In this document: positions 46,045 to 60,549 of the stretch, piece by piece
How the letters are laid out: the number at the start of each line of letters is the position of its first letter
How positions within the stretch are numbered: the stretch's first letter is position 1
Origin: Pseudanabaena sp. BC1403
Lineage (GTDB): Bacteria; Cyanobacteriota; Cyanobacteriia; Pseudanabaenales; Pseudanabaenaceae
Length of the DNA: 61,151 nucleotides
Direction of reading: 5' to 3'
Assembly (NCBI RefSeq): GCF_002914585.1
Contig: NZ_PDDM01000030.1
Span: forward strand, 1 to 61,151
Position numbers and translations under genes: made by a program
The notes under the pieces: generated by a model
Seen by the model: only the letters and a program-made list of their open reading frames with translations
The model's database searches: none
Told to the model about the DNA's origin: nothing

Positions 46045-46515
46045 CTATGAGAGATATGCGTACCTCAAAGTTTCGATGTCAAGTTTATCCATTTGCAGCA
46101 TAGCCGCCATAACTTTTTGGGATTTCTCGGCATCTTTATCCTGCAACATCACTCCTAAAGCCGTAGGAACAATCTGCCATGACACTCCAAATTTGTCATC
46201 TAGCCAACCACATCTGTTTGTCTTGCCACCTTCGGATAGCTTCTCCCACAATTCGTCTACTTCCTCCTGCGTTTCGCAGTTCACAAAAAACGATATGGCT
46301 GGTGAGAATGTAAAGTGTGGTCCACCATTTAACACTATAAATTTTTGTCCTTGAATTTCAAATGTTGCAGACATAACTGTTCCCTTAGCTCCAGGGCCAG
46401 CTTCTCCGTAATGCATCACACTCACAATCTTAGAATTTTTAAAAATAGAAGTATAAAAATTCATTGCTTCTTCGGCTTGACCATCAAACCATAAGAATGG
46501 GGTAATTTTTTGCAT
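46045..46515 (-). CDS. PhnB-like VOC family protein
   Basis: About 156 aa from the ATG at 46515; an in-frame TTG six codons upstream (46533) is less likely. Features of PhnB/3-demethylubiquinone-methyltransferase-like VOC proteins are ITPFLWFDGQAEEAMNFYTS at the start, VLNGGPHFTFSPAISFFV in the middle and DKFGVSWQIVP near the end. VOC folds may bind a metal and small substrates; enzymatic activity is not established for this group. It is the distal gene of the ECF42-type locus, separated from the next VOC gene by a palindromic repeat, so it may have its own promoter. Confidence 0.82.
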   Translation of the reverse strand: MQKITPFLWFDGQAEEAMNFYTSIFKNSKIVSVMHYGEAGPGAKGTVMSATFEIQGQKFIVLNGGPHFTFSPAISFFVNCETQEEVDELWEKLSEGGKTNRCGWLDDKFGVSWQIVPTALGVMLQDKDAEKSQKVMAAMLQMDKLDIETLRYAYLS

Positions 46516-46567
46516 AGGACTTTTACTCTTCAAATGATTGTTAAAAAGAATTTATAGCCAAGGTTGA

Positions 46568-46608
46568 CTTCGACTGTGCTAGCCATTGCGGACTGAGCGC
46601 AGTCGAAG
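46568..46608. repeat. Palindromic repeat CTTCGACTG / CAGTCGAAG
   Basis: 9-nt arms with an inner sequence GACTGAGCGCAGTC. It resembles a dispersed repeat seen in many bacterial genomes. It lies between the two VOC genes. Confidence 0.55.
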
Positions 46609-46632
46609 CCTGAAATCCATCAAAATACTGAG

Positions 46633-47043
46633 CTAGGAAGCTTCCGAGCAGTTAACCATCCAAGGAATTCCAAAGCGATCGACAAACATACCAAATCGTT
46701 TAGCCCAAAAGGTTTCCTGAAGTGGCATCCGTATCGTTCCACTTTCTGACAATGTCTGAAATACTCGTTCTGCTTCAGCTACATCTTCAAATTGAAGATT
46801 GACGGAGAAACCCTGTGGTTTTTCAAAGTAATCAGGGGGAGCGTCAGAACCCATCAATACGATATCGCCAATGGTTAATTGGGCATGGAGAATTTTATTG
46901 CGCCATGCTTCGGCAGTTTTTTCTGCCATAGGTGATTCGCCGTGGGTCATCATCATCACGATTTTGCCACCCAAACACTGCTCGTAAAACTTAAAGGCAG
47001 CTTCACATTGACCGTTGAAAGTTAGATAGGGATTCAATTGCAT
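46633..47043 (-). CDS. PhnB-like VOC family protein
   Basis: 136 aa, paralogue of the neighbouring VOC protein. Shared elements are LNPYLTFNGQCEAAFKFYEQ at the start, VLMGSDAPP, FSVNLQF, and the end AKRFGMFVDRFGIPWMVN. The HGE motif (MMTHGESPM) around residue 35 is common in the PhnB subgroup. It starts 68 bp after the upstream YCII gene, so it is probably co-transcribed from the ECF42-type promoter at 47608-47634. Function unknown; VOC genes of this type are regular members of ECF42 loci. Confidence 0.85.
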   Translation of the reverse strand: MQLNPYLTFNGQCEAAFKFYEQCLGGKIVMMMTHGESPMAEKTAEAWRNKILHAQLTIGDIVLMGSDAPPDYFEKPQGFSVNLQFEDVAEAERVFQTLSESGTIRMPLQETFWAKRFGMFVDRFGIPWMVNCSEAS

Positions 47044-47111
47044 AATGTACTCCTTGGGTTAATAAATGATTGCGAAATCTATGCGTGCGACGCTTAAAAC
47101 AGTCTGAATGC

Positions 47112-47540
47112 TTAAACTTTGAGCTTTTCTGTCTCTACGCGGATGCGTTCTTCCTGTTCCCGAAGTTCAGGTGTAAATTCATCGCCAAAATCTGCCGCCT
47201 CAAAAAGCGGACGAATCTCAATCTCTGATTCTGATGGCATGGGATTGGGACAGCGTTTGACCCATGCGATCGCTTCTTCCATCGACTTTACTTGCCAGAT
47301 CCAGTAGCCAGCCACTAGTTCCTTTGTCTCTGTGAATGGCCCATCAATGACGCTGCGATTTGCTCCTGAAAACCTTACCCGCACTCCCTTTGAGCTAGGA
47401 TGTAGTCCCTCACCAGCTAGCATAATTCCTGCTTTGACCAATTCTTCGTTGAATTTACCCATGTCCGTAAGCAGTTGTTCGCTGGGCATCACGCCAGCTT
47501 CTGAGTCTTTGGTCGCTTTGACCATAACCATGACTTTCAT
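47112..47540 (-). CDS. YCII/DGPF-domain protein (1 of 3)
   Basis: 142 aa, longest of three YCII-related paralogues in the locus. The signature is VIDGPFTETKELVAGYWIW (about 64-82), followed by EEAIAWVKRCP and EIEIRPLFE. DGPF proteins are ferredoxin-like dimers; their reaction is unknown. It is preceded 68 bp upstream by TGTCGA-N17-CGAC, the presumed ECF42 promoter. The Glu-rich tail (LREQEERIRVETEKLKV) is an extension relative to the other two copies. Confidence 0.88.
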   Translation of the reverse strand: MKVMVMVKATKDSEAGVMPSEQLLTDMGKFNEELVKAGIMLAGEGLHPSSKGVRVRFSGANRSVIDGPFTETKELVAGYWIWQVKSMEEAIAWVKRCPNPMPSESEIEIRPLFEAADFGDEFTPELREQEERIRVETEKLKV

Positions 47541-47607
47541 CTTTCAATCTCCTGTTTACTATTGCTATGAAGAGTTAAGAGCGTCTCAACCTTTGCTTCA
47601 CGATCTA

Positions 47608-47634
47608 GTCGAATGGGATGGCAAGAGATCGACA
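47608..47634 (-). promoter_or_regulatory. Candidate ECF42 promoter 2
   Basis: On the minus strand TGTCGA (47629-47634) is followed after exactly 17 bp by CGAC (47608-47611). Same boxes and spacing as 49116-49142. From memory, ECF42 sigma factors recognise TGTCGA at -35 and CG(A/T)C at -10. It drives the YCII gene starting at 47540. Confidence 0.7.
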
Positions 47635-47707
47635 GGTTGAGCAAATTTTTCTAGAAAAGTTTTTTAAAAGCTGATGAGAAATTTGGAGCGCGTTCTATTT
47701 ATGAAGA

Positions 47708-48067
47708 CTACTTTTCTGATGGCAAGCCTGATAGCTCTAGAATCGGTCGAATTTCAACCGTGCCTTTGTGGACTGTGGGAATGCGTTCGGCGATCGCGAT
47801 CGCTTCGTCGAGATTGGTTGCATCAATCAAGAAGTAGCCGCCAAGTTGTTCTCGTGTTTCAGCAAATGGGCCATCAGTTACTAGTCGTTTGCCGTCACGA
47901 ATCCTCACACTAGTTGCCTTGGCAACAGATTGCAGAGGTGAAGCGCCCAAGTATTGACCGTTCGCATTCAGATCTTGGGTGAGATGCACTGACTCCGCGT
48001 AGCATTGCTCTCTCTCATTTTCTGTCCATGCGGTTTCGTCGCTGTAAATGAGCAACATATATTTCAT
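47708..48067 (-). CDS. YCII/DGPF-domain protein (2 of 3)
   Basis: 119 aa, with the core MKYMLLIYSDETAW at the start, VTDGPFAETREQLGGYFLID (about 63-82), and GTVEIRPILE at the end. Length is typical for DGPF proteins. AAGAGGA lies just before the ATG, itself preceded by a 14-bp inverted repeat (48079-48114). No TGTCGA box lies directly upstream, so it is probably read from the promoter at 49116-49142 together with DUF1579 and YCII copy 3. Confidence 0.88.
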   Translation of the reverse strand: MKYMLLIYSDETAWTENEREQCYAESVHLTQDLNANGQYLGASPLQSVAKATSVRIRDGKRLVTDGPFAETREQLGGYFLIDATNLDEAIAIAERIPTVHKGTVEIRPILELSGLPSEK

Positions 48068-48078
48068 GATCGATCCTC

Positions 48079-48114
48079 TTGAGCTATGATTATTGCACGG
48101 TAATCATAGCTCAA
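48079..48114. other. Inverted repeat upstream of YCII copy 2
   Basis: 14-nt perfect arms TTGAGCTATGATTA / TAATCATAGCTCAA with an 8-nt loop, about 12 nt upstream of the YCII start. May be an RNA hairpin affecting the operon message or an operator; not T-rich enough to be a clear terminator. Confidence 0.5.
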
Positions 48115-48169
48115 TCCATAGCATGAGCTACATATATTTCAGGATCGATCGCTAAATATTTGTTGCGAA

Positions 48170-48649
48170 CTAATGCTTGCGCCGATAATGCGCTGTCATG
48201 AACTGCTGCCACTTGCCATCATCACCAAGAATTTGCGATCGCATGATCCGATGGTCATCACTAACAAACTCAATGATGTCTTGATACTTAGCGATCGCAC
48301 TCTGGCTAAAGTTTAGTCCTTCTGTATCGAGTGTAAGAATCTTTTCAGACTCATCAAGAGCGCCATTGTAAATCCAGAGATGCGTCATCATTGAGCCGAT
48401 AAACGTTCCCACATACCGATTGATTTTGGGGTCATAGCCCAACGTCATAATGGTCGTACCACGATTACCATCGGGCATCTCACACTCGCCTTCTGCCACG
48501 ATCCAAAGTCCGCCAAGCGATCGGACTATCTCAGTTCCTTGGGTCTTCGATGGTGGTTGGTCAGGTCCCATCATACATTCGGCTTCAGAAATCCATTCGC
48601 CAACGAATTTATCGAGCCATTGATGTTCTTTTTGAGGTTCAGCGTCCAT
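48170..48649 (-). CDS. DUF1579 family protein
   Basis: 159 aa. The family pattern is visible as EHQWLDKFVGEWISEAEC near the start, LGGLWIVAEGECEMP, TIMTLGYDPKINRYVGTFIG and LWIYNGALDE. DUF1579 proteins are predicted beta-barrel (lipocalin-like) small proteins of unknown role. It lies 42 bp after YCII copy 3 and 102 bp before YCII copy 2 on the same strand, so it belongs to the same regulated unit. DUF1579 genes accompanying DGPF proteins are familiar from other genomes. Confidence 0.85.
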   Translation of the reverse strand: MDAEPQKEHQWLDKFVGEWISEAECMMGPDQPPSKTQGTEIVRSLGGLWIVAEGECEMPDGNRGTTIMTLGYDPKINRYVGTFIGSMMTHLWIYNGALDESEKILTLDTEGLNFSQSAIAKYQDIIEFVSDDHRIMRSQILGDDGKWQQFMTAHYRRKH

Positions 48650-48691
48650 ATTTTGCTCCTAAATAGTTAATAAGGGTTTTCAAGTCTTCTC

Positions 48692-49069
48692 TTACAGATC
48701 TCGCGCGGCAACCATAGCGTTAATCTCCTCATCAGCCCCTCGAATCTCAAAAGCTCCGTTGCGAACCCCAGGGTGTTGGGACATCAACTGGATTGCGTGG
48801 TTCAGATCTCTAGCTTCAAGAAAGAGGATGCCGCCCAGATGTTCCTTCGTTTCAGCGTAGGGGCCATCTGTAATCGTGACCTTACCGTTCTGATACCGCA
48901 GTGTTGCGGCATTGCGGATGCTTTGGAGAGCTTCGCCACCAACAAAGTGTCCGCCTCGACGTAGCTCGTCGTCATAGGCTAAACATTCCTCCATCAGCGC
49001 TGTGCGATCGCTTTCTGATATCTGATCCCATTTCGCCTCATCCATATATCCAAGGCATATAAATTTCAT
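48692..49069 (-). CDS. YCII/DGPF-domain protein (3 of 3)
   Basis: 125 aa, with [16 protein letters not shown] at the start, [20 protein letters not shown] (DGPY in place of DGPF, about 63-82), and [11 protein letters not shown] near the end. It is the first gene after the sigma factor gene, beyond a hairpin, and has its own TGTCGA-N17-CGAC promoter 47 bp upstream of its ATG. Separated from the sigma gene by about 137 bp. Confidence 0.88.
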
Positions 49070-49115
49070 CGTTGCCTCCAGAGTTTCACCTAAAATTAGT
49101 TGCCTTCATCTAGTA

Positions 49116-49142
49116 GTCGTTCGGTGAAGCTGTAAATCGACA
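49116..49142 (-). promoter_or_regulatory. Candidate ECF42 promoter 1
   Basis: On the minus strand TGTCGA (49137-49142) and CGAC (49116-49119) are separated by 17 bp. The predicted start site near 49108 leaves a leader of about 40 nt before YCII copy 3. Matches the second site at 47608-47634 in both boxes and spacing. Confidence 0.7.
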
Positions 49143-49160
49143 ACGCGGCAAAATATTTTT

Positions 49161-49207
49161 ACAAAATATCTAGAGCCGTTGCTCCGCAACGCCTCTAGAT
49201 ATTTTGT
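49161..49207 (-). terminator. Terminator of the sigma factor gene
   Basis: 22-nt arms (49161-49182 and 49186-49207), one mismatch, TCC loop, reaching into the stop codon at 49207. It isolates the sigma gene from the YCII genes, which explains why these have their own promoter. Confidence 0.8.
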
Positions 49208-50463
49208 TAGTTCAGTTCTTGGAGACGTTTTTCGAGAAACCGCCGCTCTGGTTCTTGTTTCACGAGCGCAAGGGCGCGTTGGTAGGATTCTCTTGCCTGT
49301 GAATTTCTGCCCAAGCGCCGACAGAGATCGGCTTTTGCCGCATGGGCTAAGTGATAGTCAGCTAAATCGCCATTCGATAAGATGGCATCGATCCGTTGCA
49401 ATCCCGTTAGAAAGCCATCGCGCATCGCTACTGCCACGGCTCTATTTAAATCAACCACTGGTGATGGCTCTGCGCGCATGAGTAGATCATACAAGGCGAC
49501 AATCTGTGCCCAGTCCGTTGCCTCGGCACTTGTGGCTTCAGAATGTACTGCGGCGATCGCAGCCTGAATTGTGTATGAGCCAAACTGTGGAGATGATAGC
49601 GCTTGCCGCACAAGTGCCCTGCCTTCCGCAATATATGCTTGATTCCAGAGGGAACGGTCTTGATCTTCTAGCAGAATGAGATCGCCTGTGGAGGATGTGC
49701 GGGCAGTACGTCGCGATTCTTGCATGAGCATCAGGGCTAACAATCCGATCGCTTCCGCATCTGGTAATAGATCCACTACTAGTCGCCCTAAGCGAATTGC
49801 TTCTTCCGAGAGGTCATTTCTTGTTAGAGATCTCCCTGATGAAGCTGCGTATCCTTCGTTAAACACTAAGTAGATTGTTTGCAATACCGTGTCTAAGCGA
49901 TCGGGTAGTTCAGCGATCGCTGGCACTTGGTAGGGAATGTGCGCGTCGCGAATCTTAGCTTTGGCGCGGACGATGCGCTGGGCTAAGGTGGGTGGCGCGA
50001 TCAGAAAAGCACTGGCAATTTCTTCGGTGGTGAGTCCACAGACTTCTCGGAGGGTTAAGGCTACTTGTGCTTCTCGCGATAGGGCTGGATGGCAGCAGGT
50101 GAAAATCAAGCGCAAGCGATCGTCTTCTACATCTTCATCCTCTGTAATTGTGTTATCGCTTGTGTTGAGATGTTGAGATAGTTCTGCTAAAGATGCATCG
50201 AAGCGAGTACGGCGGCGAATTGTATCAATTGCTTTGAAGCGTCCAACGGAGACCAGCCAAGCTCTAGGATTGGCTGGTATGCCATCTCGCAACCATTGTT
50301 TGACCGCTACGGCAAAGGCTTCATGCATTGCCTCTTCTGCAAGATCAAAGTCGCCAATTAAGCGAATTAGGGTAGCAAAAATACTCCGAGATTCTTGACG
50401 ATAAACCTCATTTACGCGATCGCGGATCTGACTAGCATTGTTCTCATTCATTTTCTCATTCAT
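49207..50463 (-). CDS. ECF42-type RNA polymerase sigma factor with C-terminal TPR-like extension
   Basis: 418 aa from the ATG at 50463, whose ATGAATGA overlaps the stop of the DUF1772 gene; a longer frame to 50574 would run inside that gene and I reject it. Sigma2 spans about 17-90 (EEAMHEAFAVAVKQW, NPRAWLVSVGRFKAIDTIRR). The linker DDRLRLIFTCCHPAL precedes sigma4 (ALTLREVCGLTTEEIASAF, QRIVRAKAKIRD). The last 220 residues (DUF6596/TPR-like, ending YQRALALVKQEPERRFLE) are typical of group ECF42. This group is encoded with DGPF/YCII proteins and has no classical anti-sigma; the C-terminal extension is thought to be needed for activity. Translationally coupled to the DUF1772 gene. Confidence 0.9.
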   Translation of the reverse strand: MNEKMNENNASQIRDRVNEVYRQESRSIFATLIRLIGDFDLAEEAMHEAFAVAVKQWLRDGIPANPRAWLVSVGRFKAIDTIRRRTRFDASLAELSQHLNTSDNTITEDEDVEDDRLRLIFTCCHPALSREAQVALTLREVCGLTTEEIASAFLIAPPTLAQRIVRAKAKIRDAHIPYQVPAIAELPDRLDTVLQTIYLVFNEGYAASSGRSLTRNDLSEEAIRLGRLVVDLLPDAEAIGLLALMLMQESRRTARTSSTGDLILLEDQDRSLWNQAYIAEGRALVRQALSSPQFGSYTIQAAIAAVHSEATSAEATDWAQIVALYDLLMRAEPSPVVDLNRAVAVAMRDGFLTGLQRIDAILSNGDLADYHLAHAAKADLCRRLGRNSQARESYQRALALVKQEPERRFLEKRLQELN

Positions 50464-50947
50464 GGAGGGCGATTGTGATTGCTGCTGCTGCCAAAAGTGC
50501 TGATATCGTTCGCACATGGTTCCAGATTGTCCAGTTGGTAAGATAGTTAGCCCATAGACTCGCGCCGTTAGCACTATCTGGATCGGCGATCGCTAGCGCA
50601 TCATTTAGAGGCACATTGCACAGGATCGTTACGCCAAATGTGCCGATAAGATAGAACAAACTACCGATGAGTAGGTAAGCTGCCTTGGTTTGATACCAGT
50701 TTGACAGCGAAGATCCAGCAATAAATATACAGGTCGCGGCTGTTCCCAAAAATATTCCCATGAATAACGGATTGATCGCCGCAATATTGATGGATTGCAT
50801 GGCGGTAAGACCTTGCTTCGGTTGAAGTCTGGCAAGAGCATTCATTACAAAAGTGGAGAAAGCGAAGAAGACTCCAGCCATCAATCCACAACCCAGTGCA
50901 GAGAAAAGCTTTAATGCAAAATAATGTTGTTGAGTGAATTGCAGCAT
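50456..50947 (-). CDS. DUF1772 (anthrone-oxygenase-like) membrane protein
   Basis: 163 aa from the ATG at 50947; a TTG five codons upstream is in frame but less likely. Four hydrophobic helices are visible: LFSALGCGLMAGVFFAFSTF, NPLFMGIFLGTAATCIFIAG, AAYLLIGSLFYLIGTFGVTI and WNHVRTISALLAAAAITIAL. The N-x-P-L-N-D motif (CNVPLNDALA) between helices three and four and the WxxWNHVRT motif are family marks. Some relatives are called anthrone oxygenases, but activity is unproved. It overlaps the sigma start by 8 nt, so it is likely part of the same regulatory unit. Confidence 0.85.
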   Translation of the reverse strand: MLQFTQQHYFALKLFSALGCGLMAGVFFAFSTFVMNALARLQPKQGLTAMQSINIAAINPLFMGIFLGTAATCIFIAGSSLSNWYQTKAAYLLIGSLFYLIGTFGVTILCNVPLNDALAIADPDSANGASLWANYLTNWTIWNHVRTISALLAAAAITIALHE

Positions 50948-50979
50948 TGACCTACGTTCCAATCAGTTAAGCGATTTTA

Positions 50980-51019
50980 TCCCAATTCTGAAAATGGCGT
51001 GCCATTTTCAGAATTGGGA
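50980..51019. repeat. Short single-hairpin derivative of the 101-bp element
   Basis: 19-nt perfect arms with a GT loop, TCCCAATTCTGAAAATGGC / GCCATTTTCAGAATTGGGA. It joins the CCAATTC end of the element to the AAATGGC core of its second hairpin, like an internal deletion product. Confidence 0.7.
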
Positions 51020-51048
51020 CAACTATAGCCAATCAAGTCAGAATGTAA

Positions 51049-51145
51049 TACCAATTCACAAAAGTGTTGCCACACTTTTGTGAATTAAAAACCAAACCCA
51101 GTAAGGGTTTTAAAAACACAAAATGGCTACGCCATTTTGTGTTTT
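51049..51145 (+). repeat. 101-bp element, copy 3 (right end lost)
   Basis: Begins TACCAATTCAC after a TAA flank and has H1, linker and H2 intact, but the final TTGGTA is replaced by AAAACCC, the start of the hairpin at 51146-51200. Confidence 0.85.
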
Positions 51146-51200
51146 AAAACCCAAAAGTAGAATTGCGGCGCGAAGCGCCGCAATTCTACTTTTGGGTTTT
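51146..51200. other. Orphan terminator-like hairpin upstream of the transglutaminase-like gene
   Basis: 26-nt perfect arms (51146-51171 and 51175-51200), GAA loop, core GCGGCGC, followed by T5. The flanking genes diverge, so no coding gene ends here. It fuses directly to the truncated right end of copy 3. Confidence 0.6.
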
Positions 51201-51310
51201 TATCAGGCTACAGCTATATAAAGCACTTGAAAAGCTCTACCCCTCTCAATTTGGCTTCACACTGTTTATACTAGGTGTTGAATGCAAATACTCTCTCACT
51301 TCAGAGCTAT

Positions 51311-53620
51311 ATGGATACGATTCAGCAGCCTCAACCCAAGATCGGTGCATTTGATAAATTGCGAAAAGCTTCAGAATTTACGATCGCGGGAGTTGAAGAT
51401 TCGATTCCGTTGCGAGTGCTGGTGCAAATCTTTGTATTTATTAGTATTGGGGCAATGGACTCGGTTGCGAGTTCGGGAAATAGTGCTTGGGCAATCCCTC
51501 TAAGCGCGATCGCAGGAGTCTGGGCATGGTATGCAAGACGCAAACGTAATGTGATCGTGAAATTATTCATTGCGATCGCCATGATTAGTATGTTGGTCGT
51601 ATTTCTCGGAGATCTGGTGCGGAATACCGATGAAACGAGGCTATTACTGGCAAGATTGTTAATCCAGTTGCAGGTTTTGCATAGTTTTGACTTACCACGC
51701 CGCAAAGATTTGGGCTATTCGATTGTGATCGGCTTGATTTTGATGGCTTTGGCGGCGACTTTAAGCCAAACGATGGTTTTCGCGTTGTGGCTCATCGCCT
51801 TTTTAGTGGTGGGGATTCCAATTTTATTACTCGACCACCGATCGCGTTTGGGTGTGCAAACTAGCGGTTTTCAACCCAAAAAAATGGGGATTTCTCTTTT
51901 ACCTTTGTCGGGACTACTAGCGATCGTATTGGTATTAGGCCTGACAATTTTTGCCTTTTTACCCCGCTTACCAGGTTTTCAGCTACGCAACTTTCCTGTA
52001 AGCGTAAATCTCTCAGTGAAACGAGAGATGTCAAAAGGCGATATTTTAACGCGGCAGCAACAGCAGCAACAGGCTGGGGCAAATGGAACTGGCGCAAATG
52101 GCACTGGGGGAAATAGTGGTAATAACGAGCAAGAAACCTTACCCCAATTGTTTGCCCCTGAGATTGACACGGTTTCTGGGGCTAAACAGAATAATCAACG
52201 CAAACCTGAATTGGTAATGCGGGTGCGATCGCAAGCAGAGCTATTTTGGCGAGTGATGGCTTATGACGAATTTACAGGAAAGGGCTGGCGTATTTCTCGT
52301 AATGATCCCAAGCAAATCCGCACAATTAAACGTAACCCACTCAATTATGAATTTTTTGTTGCAATACCGCCCCATGCATCGATTGGCTTCACTAAAAAAG
52401 GACAGCCTATTGAAAGCCGAGAGGTAGTCCAAACCTATACGATTACATCGCCAAACTTTCCTAACCTTGTACCTGCGGCATCTATACCGAAACAGATCTT
52501 TTTCCCTAGTGAAGAGTTAGATATAGATCCCGAAGGCATGATTCGTGGACCTGGCCCCTTGCCTGAAGATCTTACTTATACGGTAATTTCTAATGTGGTA
52601 TCTCGCAATCCAAAACTACTGCGGCAAATGCCCAACGAATATGCGAAGTCAATTCGCAATTATTATTTACAAGTCCCTGCGAATTTAGCACCTGAAGTTC
52701 GGAATGCGGCTCTAGATATCGTTTCTACTGCCAAAGATCCTAATGGCAAGCCAATCTCTCTAGATAATGTCTACGATGTTGTGGTACAAATCGCCCAAAG
52801 CATCAAGCAAAACTACGCGATTAAACCGCTAAAGTTTGATGAGTCTAAGGGCGATCTCGTATCACAGTTTATTGAGCAAGGCGGCGGTGAAGAAAGTCAT
52901 TTTGTCTCAACCATGGCGGTAATGTTGCGATCACTAGGCATTCCTACCCGCTATGTGGTTGGTTTTGCCCCTGGCAAATTCAACCCATTTACAGGACTAT
53001 ATGAGGTTCAGAACATTGATACACAGTCAATGGTAGAAGTTTTCTTCCCTGCCTATGGCTGGGTTGCCTTTGATCCCGTGCCAAATCGTCCTCTGTTTCC
53101 GCCATCGATTGAGGAAAATCGGACATTTGGCGTGATGCAGACCTTTTGGAATTGGATTGCTCAATTTTTGCCGAGTCCAGTTAACAAATTTTTTGAATCG
53201 CTATTTGAAAGTATTAGTAAGTTTGTGGGCGGTTTGGTGAATTGGCTGATTGAAATGGGCTGGATCGGGATTGGTTTTGGCTTAGCGATCGCCTTTGGCA
53301 TCGGTATTGGTGGCTGGGCATTGTGGCAATTTGCGATTTGGTGGTGGCAATTGCAACGCTTGCAAAAAATGCCAATCCCGCAGCGCACCTATCAACAAAT
53401 GCTGCAATGGCTATCGGAACAAGGTAAGCCTAAATCTTCTTACCAAACCCCTCAAGAATATGTAGCTAGTCTTGGCGATCGCGTCTCCGAGAACCAAGCC
53501 TCTGCGATCGCCAAAATTACACAGATTTATCAAGATTGGCGCTATGGAGATCGGGCGATCAGCTATAACCTAGCTACAGAGCTAAAAATGTTGCTCAAGC
53601 AATTAAAAATCAAAAGATAA
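51311..53620 (+). CDS. TgpA-like membrane protein with degenerate transglutaminase domain
   Basis: About 769 aa from the ATG at 51311; a GTG 12 codons upstream is also in frame and the start is uncertain. The N-terminal third has about six membrane helices (e.g. VFALWLIAFLVVGIPILLL), then a Gln/Asn/Gly-rich low-complexity stretch, a DUF3488/TgpA beta region, and a transglutaminase-like core (FVSTMAVMLRSLGIPTRYVV). At the usual GxC site the sequence is GGGEESHFVS with no Cys, and the later His position reads DTQSMVEV. The normal Cys-His-Asp triad therefore seems lost, suggesting a non-catalytic role, possibly general to the cyanobacterial branch. A further membrane helix and a DUF4129-like C-terminal domain follow. 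Function unknown. Confidence 0.82.
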   Translation: MDTIQQPQPKIGAFDKLRKASEFTIAGVEDSIPLRVLVQIFVFISIGAMDSVASSGNSAWAIPLSAIAGVWAWYARRKRNVIVKLFIAIAMISMLVVFLGDLVRNTDETRLLLARLLIQLQVLHSFDLPRRKDLGYSIVIGLILMALAATLSQTMVFALWLIAFLVVGIPILLLDHRSRLGVQTSGFQPKKMGISLLPLSGLLAIVLVLGLTIFAFLPRLPGFQLRNFPVSVNLSVKREMSKGDILTRQQQQQQAGANGTGANGTGGNSGNNEQETLPQLFAPEIDTVSGAKQNNQRKPELVMRVRSQAELFWRVMAYDEFTGKGWRISRNDPKQIRTIKRNPLNYEFFVAIPPHASIGFTKKGQPIESREVVQTYTITSPNFPNLVPAASIPKQIFFPSEELDIDPEGMIRGPGPLPEDLTYTVISNVVSRNPKLLRQMPNEYAKSIRNYYLQVPANLAPEVRNAALDIVSTAKDPNGKPISLDNVYDVVVQIAQSIKQNYAIKPLKFDESKGDLVSQFIEQGGGEESHFVSTMAVMLRSLGIPTRYVVGFAPGKFNPFTGLYEVQNIDTQSMVEVFFPAYGWVAFDPVPNRPLFPPSIEENRTFGVMQTFWNWIAQFLPSPVNKFFESLFESISKFVGGLVNWLIEMGWIGIGFGLAIAFGIGIGGWALWQFAIWWWQLQRLQKMPIPQRTYQQMLQWLSEQGKPKSSYQTPQEYVASLGDRVSENQASAIAKITQIYQDWRYGDRAISYNLATELKMLLKQLKIKR

Positions 53621-59019: not shown

Positions 59020-60549
59020 TTAATCAAATCCAAGTCTTCTCAATGCAATTTTACGATTTTGCCACACCTGTATTTCTTGCGGTGATATTTGGATGGCTTG
59101 ATCATAGGCAACGATCGCTTCTTCGAGCATTCCTAGCCCGCTGAGGGCATTCCCTCGACTATACCAAGCAAAATGATCGTCGGGATTGATTTCTAATGCT
59201 CGATCATGACTAGAGATCGCTTCTTCATAAAGTTCTAGTTTGCTAAGTACTAGCCCCCGATTGTTCCATGCATAATAGTCATCGGGACGTAGCTCTAAAG
59301 CTTTATCATAACTAGCGATCGATTCGGTGTAATTTCCCCATTGCTCAAGAGCTTTGGCTCGACTATACCAAATTTGATGATCGTGAGGCTTGTACTCTAA
59401 GGCGCGATCGTAACTTGCTACTGCCTCTCTATACTTTCCAAGACTTTCAAGAGCGTAGGCGCGACTAAACCAACCCTGTACATAGTCAGGTCTAATGGCT
59501 AGGGCTTTTTCACAATGATCGATCGCTTCTTCATATTTGCCAATCATTCCACAAACTAAGCCTTTACCACCATAGGAATAATAGTAATCAGGCTTGTGTT
59601 TGAGGGCGAGGTTGTAACTATTGATCGCCTCTTCGTAGCGTTCTAACATGCTTAATGAGGTGCCAAGATTGTGCCAAGCAGCATAAAAATCTTCCTTATA
59701 AGTTATCGCTTGACGATAATTTTGCACAGCTTCTTCATGATGGCCAGACAGGTCTAAAGCTACGGCGCGGTTGTACCAAGCCAAATGATTGTCGGTACGA
59801 ATCTGCAAAGCAAGATCGCAATTGACGATCGCCTCTTGGCAACGATTGCCAGCGACTAATAGACCTCCTTGCTCTAGCAGTAGCTCAACGCGGCGTTCGG
59901 AAATTAAGGGTTGAGCTGCGATTAGTTTTTGCAGATCCTCATATTTGCGATCGCGTTCTTCTTCAGTGATTTGAGCATAGGCTTCATAGCGATCGCCACT
60001 GACCCAGCGAAAAGTCTCCTGTCGCATCAATTCCATGTCAGTAGGAAACTCAAACACCTCAATGTTGCCTTTAAAAAATTCGGGATAGCTGTCAATAAAA
60101 AATTTGAGTGCAAATAAAGGCAGTAAAAATACAAAACAGATCGGGAAACTCTCTTTGAGTTTAGATTGCAGCAGACTCAGGTGGGCAAGCGGACGGGGAA
60201 CATGGGTCAACTTCTCGACTAAATCATGATTATCTAGATCGATAATCTTATTCTCTAAAAATTCTTCTATACCTGTGACAAATAGTAGATTTACACCGTG
60301 TAAATCTTGTTCATTTACTAACATTTCGTGAAAATCGGCAATCGGCCGATCTAGCCTTAATACACGAATTGTTCGATTCGTTGCATCTGCCCTTGTCCTT
60401 TTAATAATTTGCTCACCCTCCGAAGGTGAACAACGCACAAAGAGCATTTCAAAATCTTGCTTGGTTCTTAATAGATCCAATAGGTGCTGATATTCTGTCT
60501 CTGGATTTTTTAGAGCGTCCTTATCCCAAACGTTTCCAGTGTATTGCAT
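59020..60549 (-). CDS. TPR protein with degenerate N-terminal NTPase-like domain
   Basis: 509 aa. Residues about 20-200 look like a STAND/AAA-type NTPase without a P-loop: FEMLFVRCSPSEGEQIIK sits where Walker A would be, VNLLFVTGIEEFLE resembles Walker B, and HVPRPLAHLSLLQSKLKE resembles a sensor region. About eight to nine TPR units follow (about 220-505), each close to the W-x-x-x-G-x-x-L...A-x-x-x-Y-x-x-A-l-x-x-x-P consensus, including AWYNRAVALDLSGHHEEAV. The domain seems non-hydrolytic, serving protein binding. It precedes a hybrid kinase by 30 bp, suggesting a joint signalling role. Confidence 0.8.
   Translation of the reverse strand: MQYTGNVWDKDALKNPETEYQHLLDLLRTKQDFEMLFVRCSPSEGEQIIKRTRADATNRTIRVLRLDRPIADFHEMLVNEQDLHGVNLLFVTGIEEFLENKIIDLDNHDLVEKLTHVPRPLAHLSLLQSKLKESFPICFVFLLPLFALKFFIDSYPEFFKGNIEVFEFPTDMELMRQETFRWVSGDRYEAYAQITEEERDRKYEDLQKLIAAQPLISERRVELLLEQGGLLVAGNRCQEAIVNCDLALQIRTDNHLAWYNRAVALDLSGHHEEAVQNYRQAITYKEDFYAAWHNLGTSLSMLERYEEAINSYNLALKHKPDYYYSYGGKGLVCGMIGKYEEAIDHCEKALAIRPDYVQGWFSRAYALESLGKYREAVASYDRALEYKPHDHQIWYSRAKALEQWGNYTESIASYDKALELRPDDYYAWNNRGLVLSKLELYEEAISSHDRALEINPDDHFAWYSRGNALSGLGMLEEAIVAYDQAIQISPQEIQVWQNRKIALRRLGFD

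Follow-up and report, generated by a model that had tools for sequence, protein, structure and literature searches.

Probable ECF42 sigma factor promoters in Pseudanabaena sp. BC1403, and two versions of the −10 box among cyanobacteria

ECF42 sigma factors are widespread, and those of Streptomyces recognize TGTCGA/CG(A/T)C. One factor of this type is encoded in the 61,151-nucleotide stretch of Pseudanabaena sp. BC1403 DNA analyzed here (contig NZ_PDDM01000030.1, positions 1 to 61,151; hereafter, the window). Its open reading frame (49207..50574, minus strand) opens at 50574, although the ATG at 50463 is the more likely start codon. The start of the sigma gene is overlapped by a gene that Pfam assigns to Anthrone_oxy (50456..50962, minus strand), presumably the DUF1772 gene of the first-pass annotation, and the two genes probably form one unit. 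Two further groups of genes, also on the minus strand and identified by Pfam, each follow a candidate promoter site. Downstream of site 1 lie, in order, YCII gene 1 (48692..49069), a DUF1579 gene (48170..48649), and YCII gene 2 (47708..48067). Downstream of site 2 lie YCII gene 3 (47112..47540), a gene of the VOC/glyoxalase fold (46633..47043), and, as a possible third member, the VOC-like 3-dmu-9_3-mt gene (46045..46533). An inverted repeat without assigned strand (49161..49207) occupies the interval between the sigma stop codon and site 1, and is a possible terminator that would separate the sigma unit from the target unit; part of it is listed on the minus strand among terminator-like matches, of which the six found are no excess over the shuffle mean of 5.2. 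Upstream of the Anthrone_oxy-sigma unit, a 20-pair hairpin (51150-51196) is immediately preceded by more inverted repeats.

The first-pass annotation called this an ECF42 locus, and Pfam agrees: sigma regions 2 and 4 (PF04542 and PF08281) are found within 49207-50574, and the carboxyl-terminal extension contains DUF6596 (residues 226-325) and a TPR_7 match (residues 410-444) that, at 23 bits, falls below the Pfam cut-off of 27.9 bits. A TPR extension and a YCII neighbor are the ECF42 hallmarks given in the available excerpt of PMC8999054. Three YCII (DGPF) genes neighbor the window sigma (47112-49069), and another ECF42 trait, TGTCG(A/G) and CG(A/T)C boxes separated by a 17-base spacer, is found at the locus in the form of putative promoters. 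Among the eight Pfam-scanned genes in 46045-50962 there is no anti-sigma gene, only YCII, VOC, DUF1579, Anthrone_oxy, and sigma genes. A sigma of Pseudanabaena sp. SR411 is 94% identical to that of the window (best segment, residues 1-419; among the matches listed). Elsewhere near the locus, a 509-residue TPR-repeat protein (59020-60549, minus strand) matches a sigma profile at 253 bits, but it was rejected as a sigma factor, since none of the 25 families listed for it is a sigma domain. Locus L066 has a sigma-profile match of the same size.

Two TGTCGA-N17-CGAC boxes on the minus strand, just upstream of YCII genes and absent before the sigma and DUF1772 genes, had been described at first pass, and each element of that description holds. 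Site 1 (49116-49142, minus strand; TGTCGATTTACAGCTTCACCGAACGAC) has the form TGTCGATTT-N14-CGAC(TA) and lies 46 bp upstream of the YCII gene 1 ATG (49069). Site 2 (47608-47634, minus strand; TGTCGATCTCTTGCCATCCCATTCGAC) has the form TGTCGATCT-N14-CGAC(TA) and lies 67 bp upstream of the YCII gene 3 ATG (47540). Both 27-bp sequences are exact in the window. No site is present upstream of the Anthrone_oxy-sigma unit (50900-51330), where the best match has three mismatches (spacers 16 to 18), or within the Anthrone_oxy gene upstream of sigma (50440-50900), where the best has two. An identical or near-identical copy of the site 1 27-mer occupies the same position at loci L058, L061, L063, and L065, and all four also have counterparts of site 2. 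Judged from the window alone, the pair is a bare observation within the reach of chance: with spacers of 15 to 19 bases, the expected number of matches is 0.58, and two or more occur in 14 of 100 shuffles.

Genome-wide counts cut both ways. In the 5.5-Mb genome a loose form of the motif occurs 52 times, versus 88 for a reversed control, and thus shows no enrichment; the bare motif does occur at the random rate that the first-pass annotation had named as part of what would speak against its claim. Its placement is another matter. Twelve sites match TGTCGA-N17-CG(A/T)C with a spacer of exactly 17. The genome contains five YCII genes, and three of the sites lie within 100 bp upstream of one of them; a binomial estimate for this placement is 2e-11. 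The other nine are all intragenic, in open reading frames of at least 294 codons, on either strand. The third YCII-associated site is on another contig (C22), upstream of a YCII gene, a GST gene, and a second ECF42 sigma gene that the first-pass annotation had overlooked.

It is comparison among genomes that makes the sites convincing as candidate promoters. DUF6596 is present in 15 of 58 relatives and in 95 of the 388 genomes of the class. From 127 listed rows, 80 cyanobacterial loci were assembled (the window and 79 others), and the tree of their sigma factors divides into clade A (51, including the window sigma) and clade B (29, including the C22 sigma). TGTCG(A/G)-N17-CG(A/T)C occurs in 51 of the 91 non-redundant YCII upstream regions at these loci (65 of 114 in all; YCII genes identified with a profile built from those of the BC1403 genome); in the same regions, spacers of 14 to 16 or 18 to 20 yield no match. 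Other open reading frames at these loci have the N17 motif in 12 of 1086 look-alike-free upstream regions, and nine of those 12 genes are, by eye, VOC-, SnoaL-, or DUF1579-like and possible targets. A motif-blind count of all pairs of 4-mers, with spacers of 8 to 25, puts fragments of this dyad at the top (33 of 91).

The motif also accompanies the sigma factor. A refined version, TGTCGATYT-N14-CGACT, is found in 86 of the 388 genomes: 71 of the 95 with DUF6596, and 15 of the 293 without (Fisher, 1.6e-41). The reversed pattern, by comparison, is found in 10 of 95 and 22 of 293, respectively (p 0.39). A second pattern, TGTCGAAAT-N14-CGTC, is found in 51 genomes: 38 of the 95 and 13 of the 293. 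Some of these counts weigh against a promoter: the refined motif is missing from 24 genomes that have DUF6596 and present in the 15 that do not. Likewise, 40 of the 91 non-redundant YCII upstream regions contain no site, some of them belonging to later genes in a unit, and at 13 of the 80 loci no exact match lies closer than 5 kb to the sigma gene. These 13 are a mixed group: six clade B loci with a one-mismatch version upstream of YCII; the clade A locus L097, with two CGAT versions; L062, L079, and L120, near contig ends; and L075, L077, and L080, with no site near sigma.

The two clades differ in both their −10 base and the location of their sites. Sites lie within 5 kb of sigma at 45 of the 51 clade A loci, where every one reads CGAC, and at 22 of the 29 clade B loci, where every one reads CGTC; no locus among the 80 mixes the two. 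The consensus of 87 distinct clade A sites is TGTCGATtTgag..att.cCgttCGACTaa, and that of 22 clade B sites is TGTCGAAATggc.....cTCGctCGTCATAG, each with an A-rich stretch upstream. The bases that follow the −35 box also differ: TGTCGATYT in clade A versus TGTCGAAAT in clade B (that is, TTT or TCT versus AAT). No clade A locus (0 of 51) has a same-strand site within 2.5 kb upstream of sigma. In clade B, 27 of 29 do have a site upstream of sigma (22 exact, five reading CGTT), separated from it by a YCII gene, and we infer that YCII and the clade B sigma share one message. Because sites precede the sigma genes of clade B and not those of clade A, the B sigma is probably self-amplifying and the A sigma is not. 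The first-pass annotation had proposed that the Streptomyces specificity holds in this cyanobacterium. Across cyanobacteria this is borne out by the spacing and position of the sites and by their occurrence together with the sigma factor; CG(A/T)C as one interchangeable −10 box does not survive.

How far the second sigma might nonetheless share the window sites deserves consideration. If the C22 factor also used them, the genome would have one overlapping ECF42 regulon, with CG(A/T)C as a single specificity. This is possible but doubtful. Both motifs share TGTCGA, the 17-base spacer, and CGNC, and the −10 base is not strictly bound to clade in other phyla; within the cyanobacteria, however, the 45 and 22 loci divide without exception, and the bases following the −35 box differ as well.

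The best 80 loci among the matches listed in named genomes represent many phyla (three of 80 are cyanobacterial by title); because these loci were confirmed against the window sigma, they lean to clade A. TGTCGA-N17-CGAC occurs in 34 of their 112 YCII upstream regions and the CGTC form in three, whereas a spacer of 16, which argues against a fixed 17, occurs in ten of the 112. Plasmids provided 14 loci for analysis, of 40 listed rows, and both −10 bases are seen in these and in further genomes. A strict clade-to-base rule was rejected outside the cyanobacteria: a Neorhizobium sigma from the CGTC side of the tree is accompanied by CGAC, and both bases occur at plasmid loci of Streptomyces.

Experimental data exist for an ECF42 factor of Sinorhizobium meliloti, RpoE10, whose promoters are tabulated as TGTCGG-N17-CGTC (Table 1 of PMC6180224). 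In the available excerpts of that study, RpoE10 overexpression raised two motif-bearing operons at least 2-fold; a motif-bearing YCII gene, however, did not respond, and its motif overlaps the mapped start, according to the authors (PMC6180224). The YCII site in a second S. meliloti record is identical to its tabulated counterpart. Like the window sigma, RpoE10 has a TPR extension, a nearby YCII gene, and sites with a 17-base spacer, and its targets include glyoxalase-like genes (PMC6180224, in part). Unlike the window sites, its −35 box ends in G and its −10 box is CGTC; moreover, YCII and sigma are predicted to form one unit there, whereas the window sigma belongs to a unit apart from its putative targets (PMC6180224, in part). 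By analogy, the Sinorhizobium data support the promoter geometry proposed here.

Two other systems provide comparisons for the extension. Streptomyces venezuelae ECF42 likewise has a long TPR-rich carboxyl-terminal extension, essential for activity there, and a conserved YCII neighbor (excerpts of PMC8999054). In ECF41 the carboxyl-terminal extension is also a proposed regulator (excerpts of PMC8999054 and PMC8103513). That extension is of the SnoaL type, in contrast to the window sigma, which contains DUF6596 and TPR in place of a SnoaL domain.

Placement before YCII genes, the exact spacer, co-occurrence with the sigma factor, and the Sinorhizobium geometry together make it very probable that the two window sites are −35/−10 promoters of the adjacent ECF42 sigma. 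Might the dyad instead bind some other conserved regulator, such as a repressor? The role assigned to RNA polymerase is read from sequence, and the tandem copies seen at some loci would suit a cooperative binder. Nevertheless, a regulator of this kind is improbable: the boxes are separated by a −35/−10-like distance, an A-rich stretch precedes them, and the downstream part reads CGACTA/CGTCATAG; the motif tracks the sigma factor, with its variant depending on the clade of that factor; and the same boxes are tabulated as the −35 and −10 elements of mapped Sinorhizobium ECF42 promoters (PMC6180224, in part). That so short a motif merely matches by chance in 61 kb, an idea for which the shuffles and the unenriched loose motif might speak, is very hard to credit in view of the exact spacer, the position, conservation over many genera, and sigma co-occurrence.

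Promoter recognition by the ECF42 sigma would thus place region 4 on TGTCGATYT and region 2 on CGACTA. Judging by the mapped start of one Sinorhizobium promoter, transcription would begin some 9 nt downstream of CGAC, and the resulting messages would have short leaders. Two messages are predicted, YCII-DUF1579-YCII and YCII-VOC-(VOC); gene order and the positions of the sites make these units plausible, with only predicted ends. The window sigma itself would not be under such a promoter (an open loop), and its unit would end at the 49161-49207 inverted repeat. Since the sigma unit has no such site, the level of sigma is presumably set by something else. In line with published ECF42 work, its activity would probably be controlled through the TPR-rich carboxyl-terminal extension, by some signal and some partner. 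The target products suggest the handling of reactive small molecules. The likely cyanobacterial ECF42 promoter is a ready reporter for finding the ECF42 signal.

The paralogs, which lie side by side in some genomes, raise a broader proposal. Their promoters may be insulated from one another by the third −10 base together with the bases following the −35 box, and their wiring may be opposite, open-loop for A and self-amplifying for B; this stands at about even chances. Equally balanced is the clade A part, in which an open-loop sigma would drive several units, tandem promoters, and distant GST or VOC genes. The clade B part, a self-amplifying sigma within a YCII-(GST)-sigma unit, could go either way. 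Paralogs that differ in wiring and in a single −10 base make a natural pair for studying how ECF factors avoid cross-talk, and for asking which region 2 residues read the −10 box. The novelty of the A/B promoter split is not established. A full-text literature search, with most subscription papers outside its reach, found no account of ECF42 promoters in cyanobacteria, ECF42 itself being named only in one paper's reference list; a re-classification of the ECF factors reportedly may give subgroup motifs.

A change in region 2 may set which −10 base is read: at window-ORF positions 113 and 104, Phe/Tyr and Arg/Lys versus Asn/Arg/His and others. The pooled set for this comparison contained 236 loci (L155, whose contig equals that of L061 in length, was left out), of which 233 gave a sigma and 217 of those a YCII gene; 129 sigmas had one clear label, after 101 siteless and three two-base cases were dropped. 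At residue 104, Arg/Lys accompanies CGAC in 62 sigmas and CGTC in two, versus 12 and 53 for other residues. At residue 113, Phe/Tyr accompanies CGAC in 67 and CGTC in one, versus seven and 54 for other residues. Residue 104 was rejected as sole determinant with a first set of 123 labeled sigmas (11 loci labeled by hand, some as "no label"), in which 12 of 95 CGAC sigmas lack Arg/Lys and no CGTC sigma has it. The −10 label changes only about seven times on the tree (at least 34 in shuffles), and both residues switch on the branch of the main change, so the association of residue with base largely reflects a single event. Most of the smaller label changes occur without a matching change at 113. 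Residues 104 and 113 are a lead only.

Sites located away from sigma hint at a wider regulon. At L135, L136, and L137, in three genomes of three genera, nearly the same 27-mer forms a CGAC-type site 39 bp upstream of a GST-like gene (by Pfam for L135, by likeness for L136 and L137), a likely trans target. Distant clade A sites at L138, L139, and L142 precede glyoxalase, DUF1579, SnoaL, YCII, or other GST genes, although YCII labels of individual sites (at counterpart, distant, and other-phyla loci) may include SnoaL genes. This fits a small regulon centered on small-molecule handling.

Several further observations concern individual loci. L057, L105, L107, and other clade A loci have two or three tandem promoter-like sites, most often 81-96 bp apart; 18 of the 32 spacings below 200 bp are 81-84 bp, and the spacings reveal no sharp period indicative of helical phasing. 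A same-genus genome without a DUF6596 match keeps a CGTC-type promoter (L150; G018:C168, ~142-1426); its YCII is 91% and its GST 85% identical, but sigma matches are confined to residues 80-120 and 308-321. L150 is, by these matches, a case of apparent natural sigma loss with the putative promoter retained. L253 (G047:C1:4174000-4186000) is possibly a decayed second ECF42 locus: it combines a CGTC-type site with weak matches to YCII and partial ones to sigma, and lies about 36 kb away from the only DUF6596 gene of that genome. Finally, YCII and SnoaL are fused in one protein at L097:4313-5254 (by Pfam) and also at L104 and L113 (by reading); other ECF42 loci have separate SnoaL genes.
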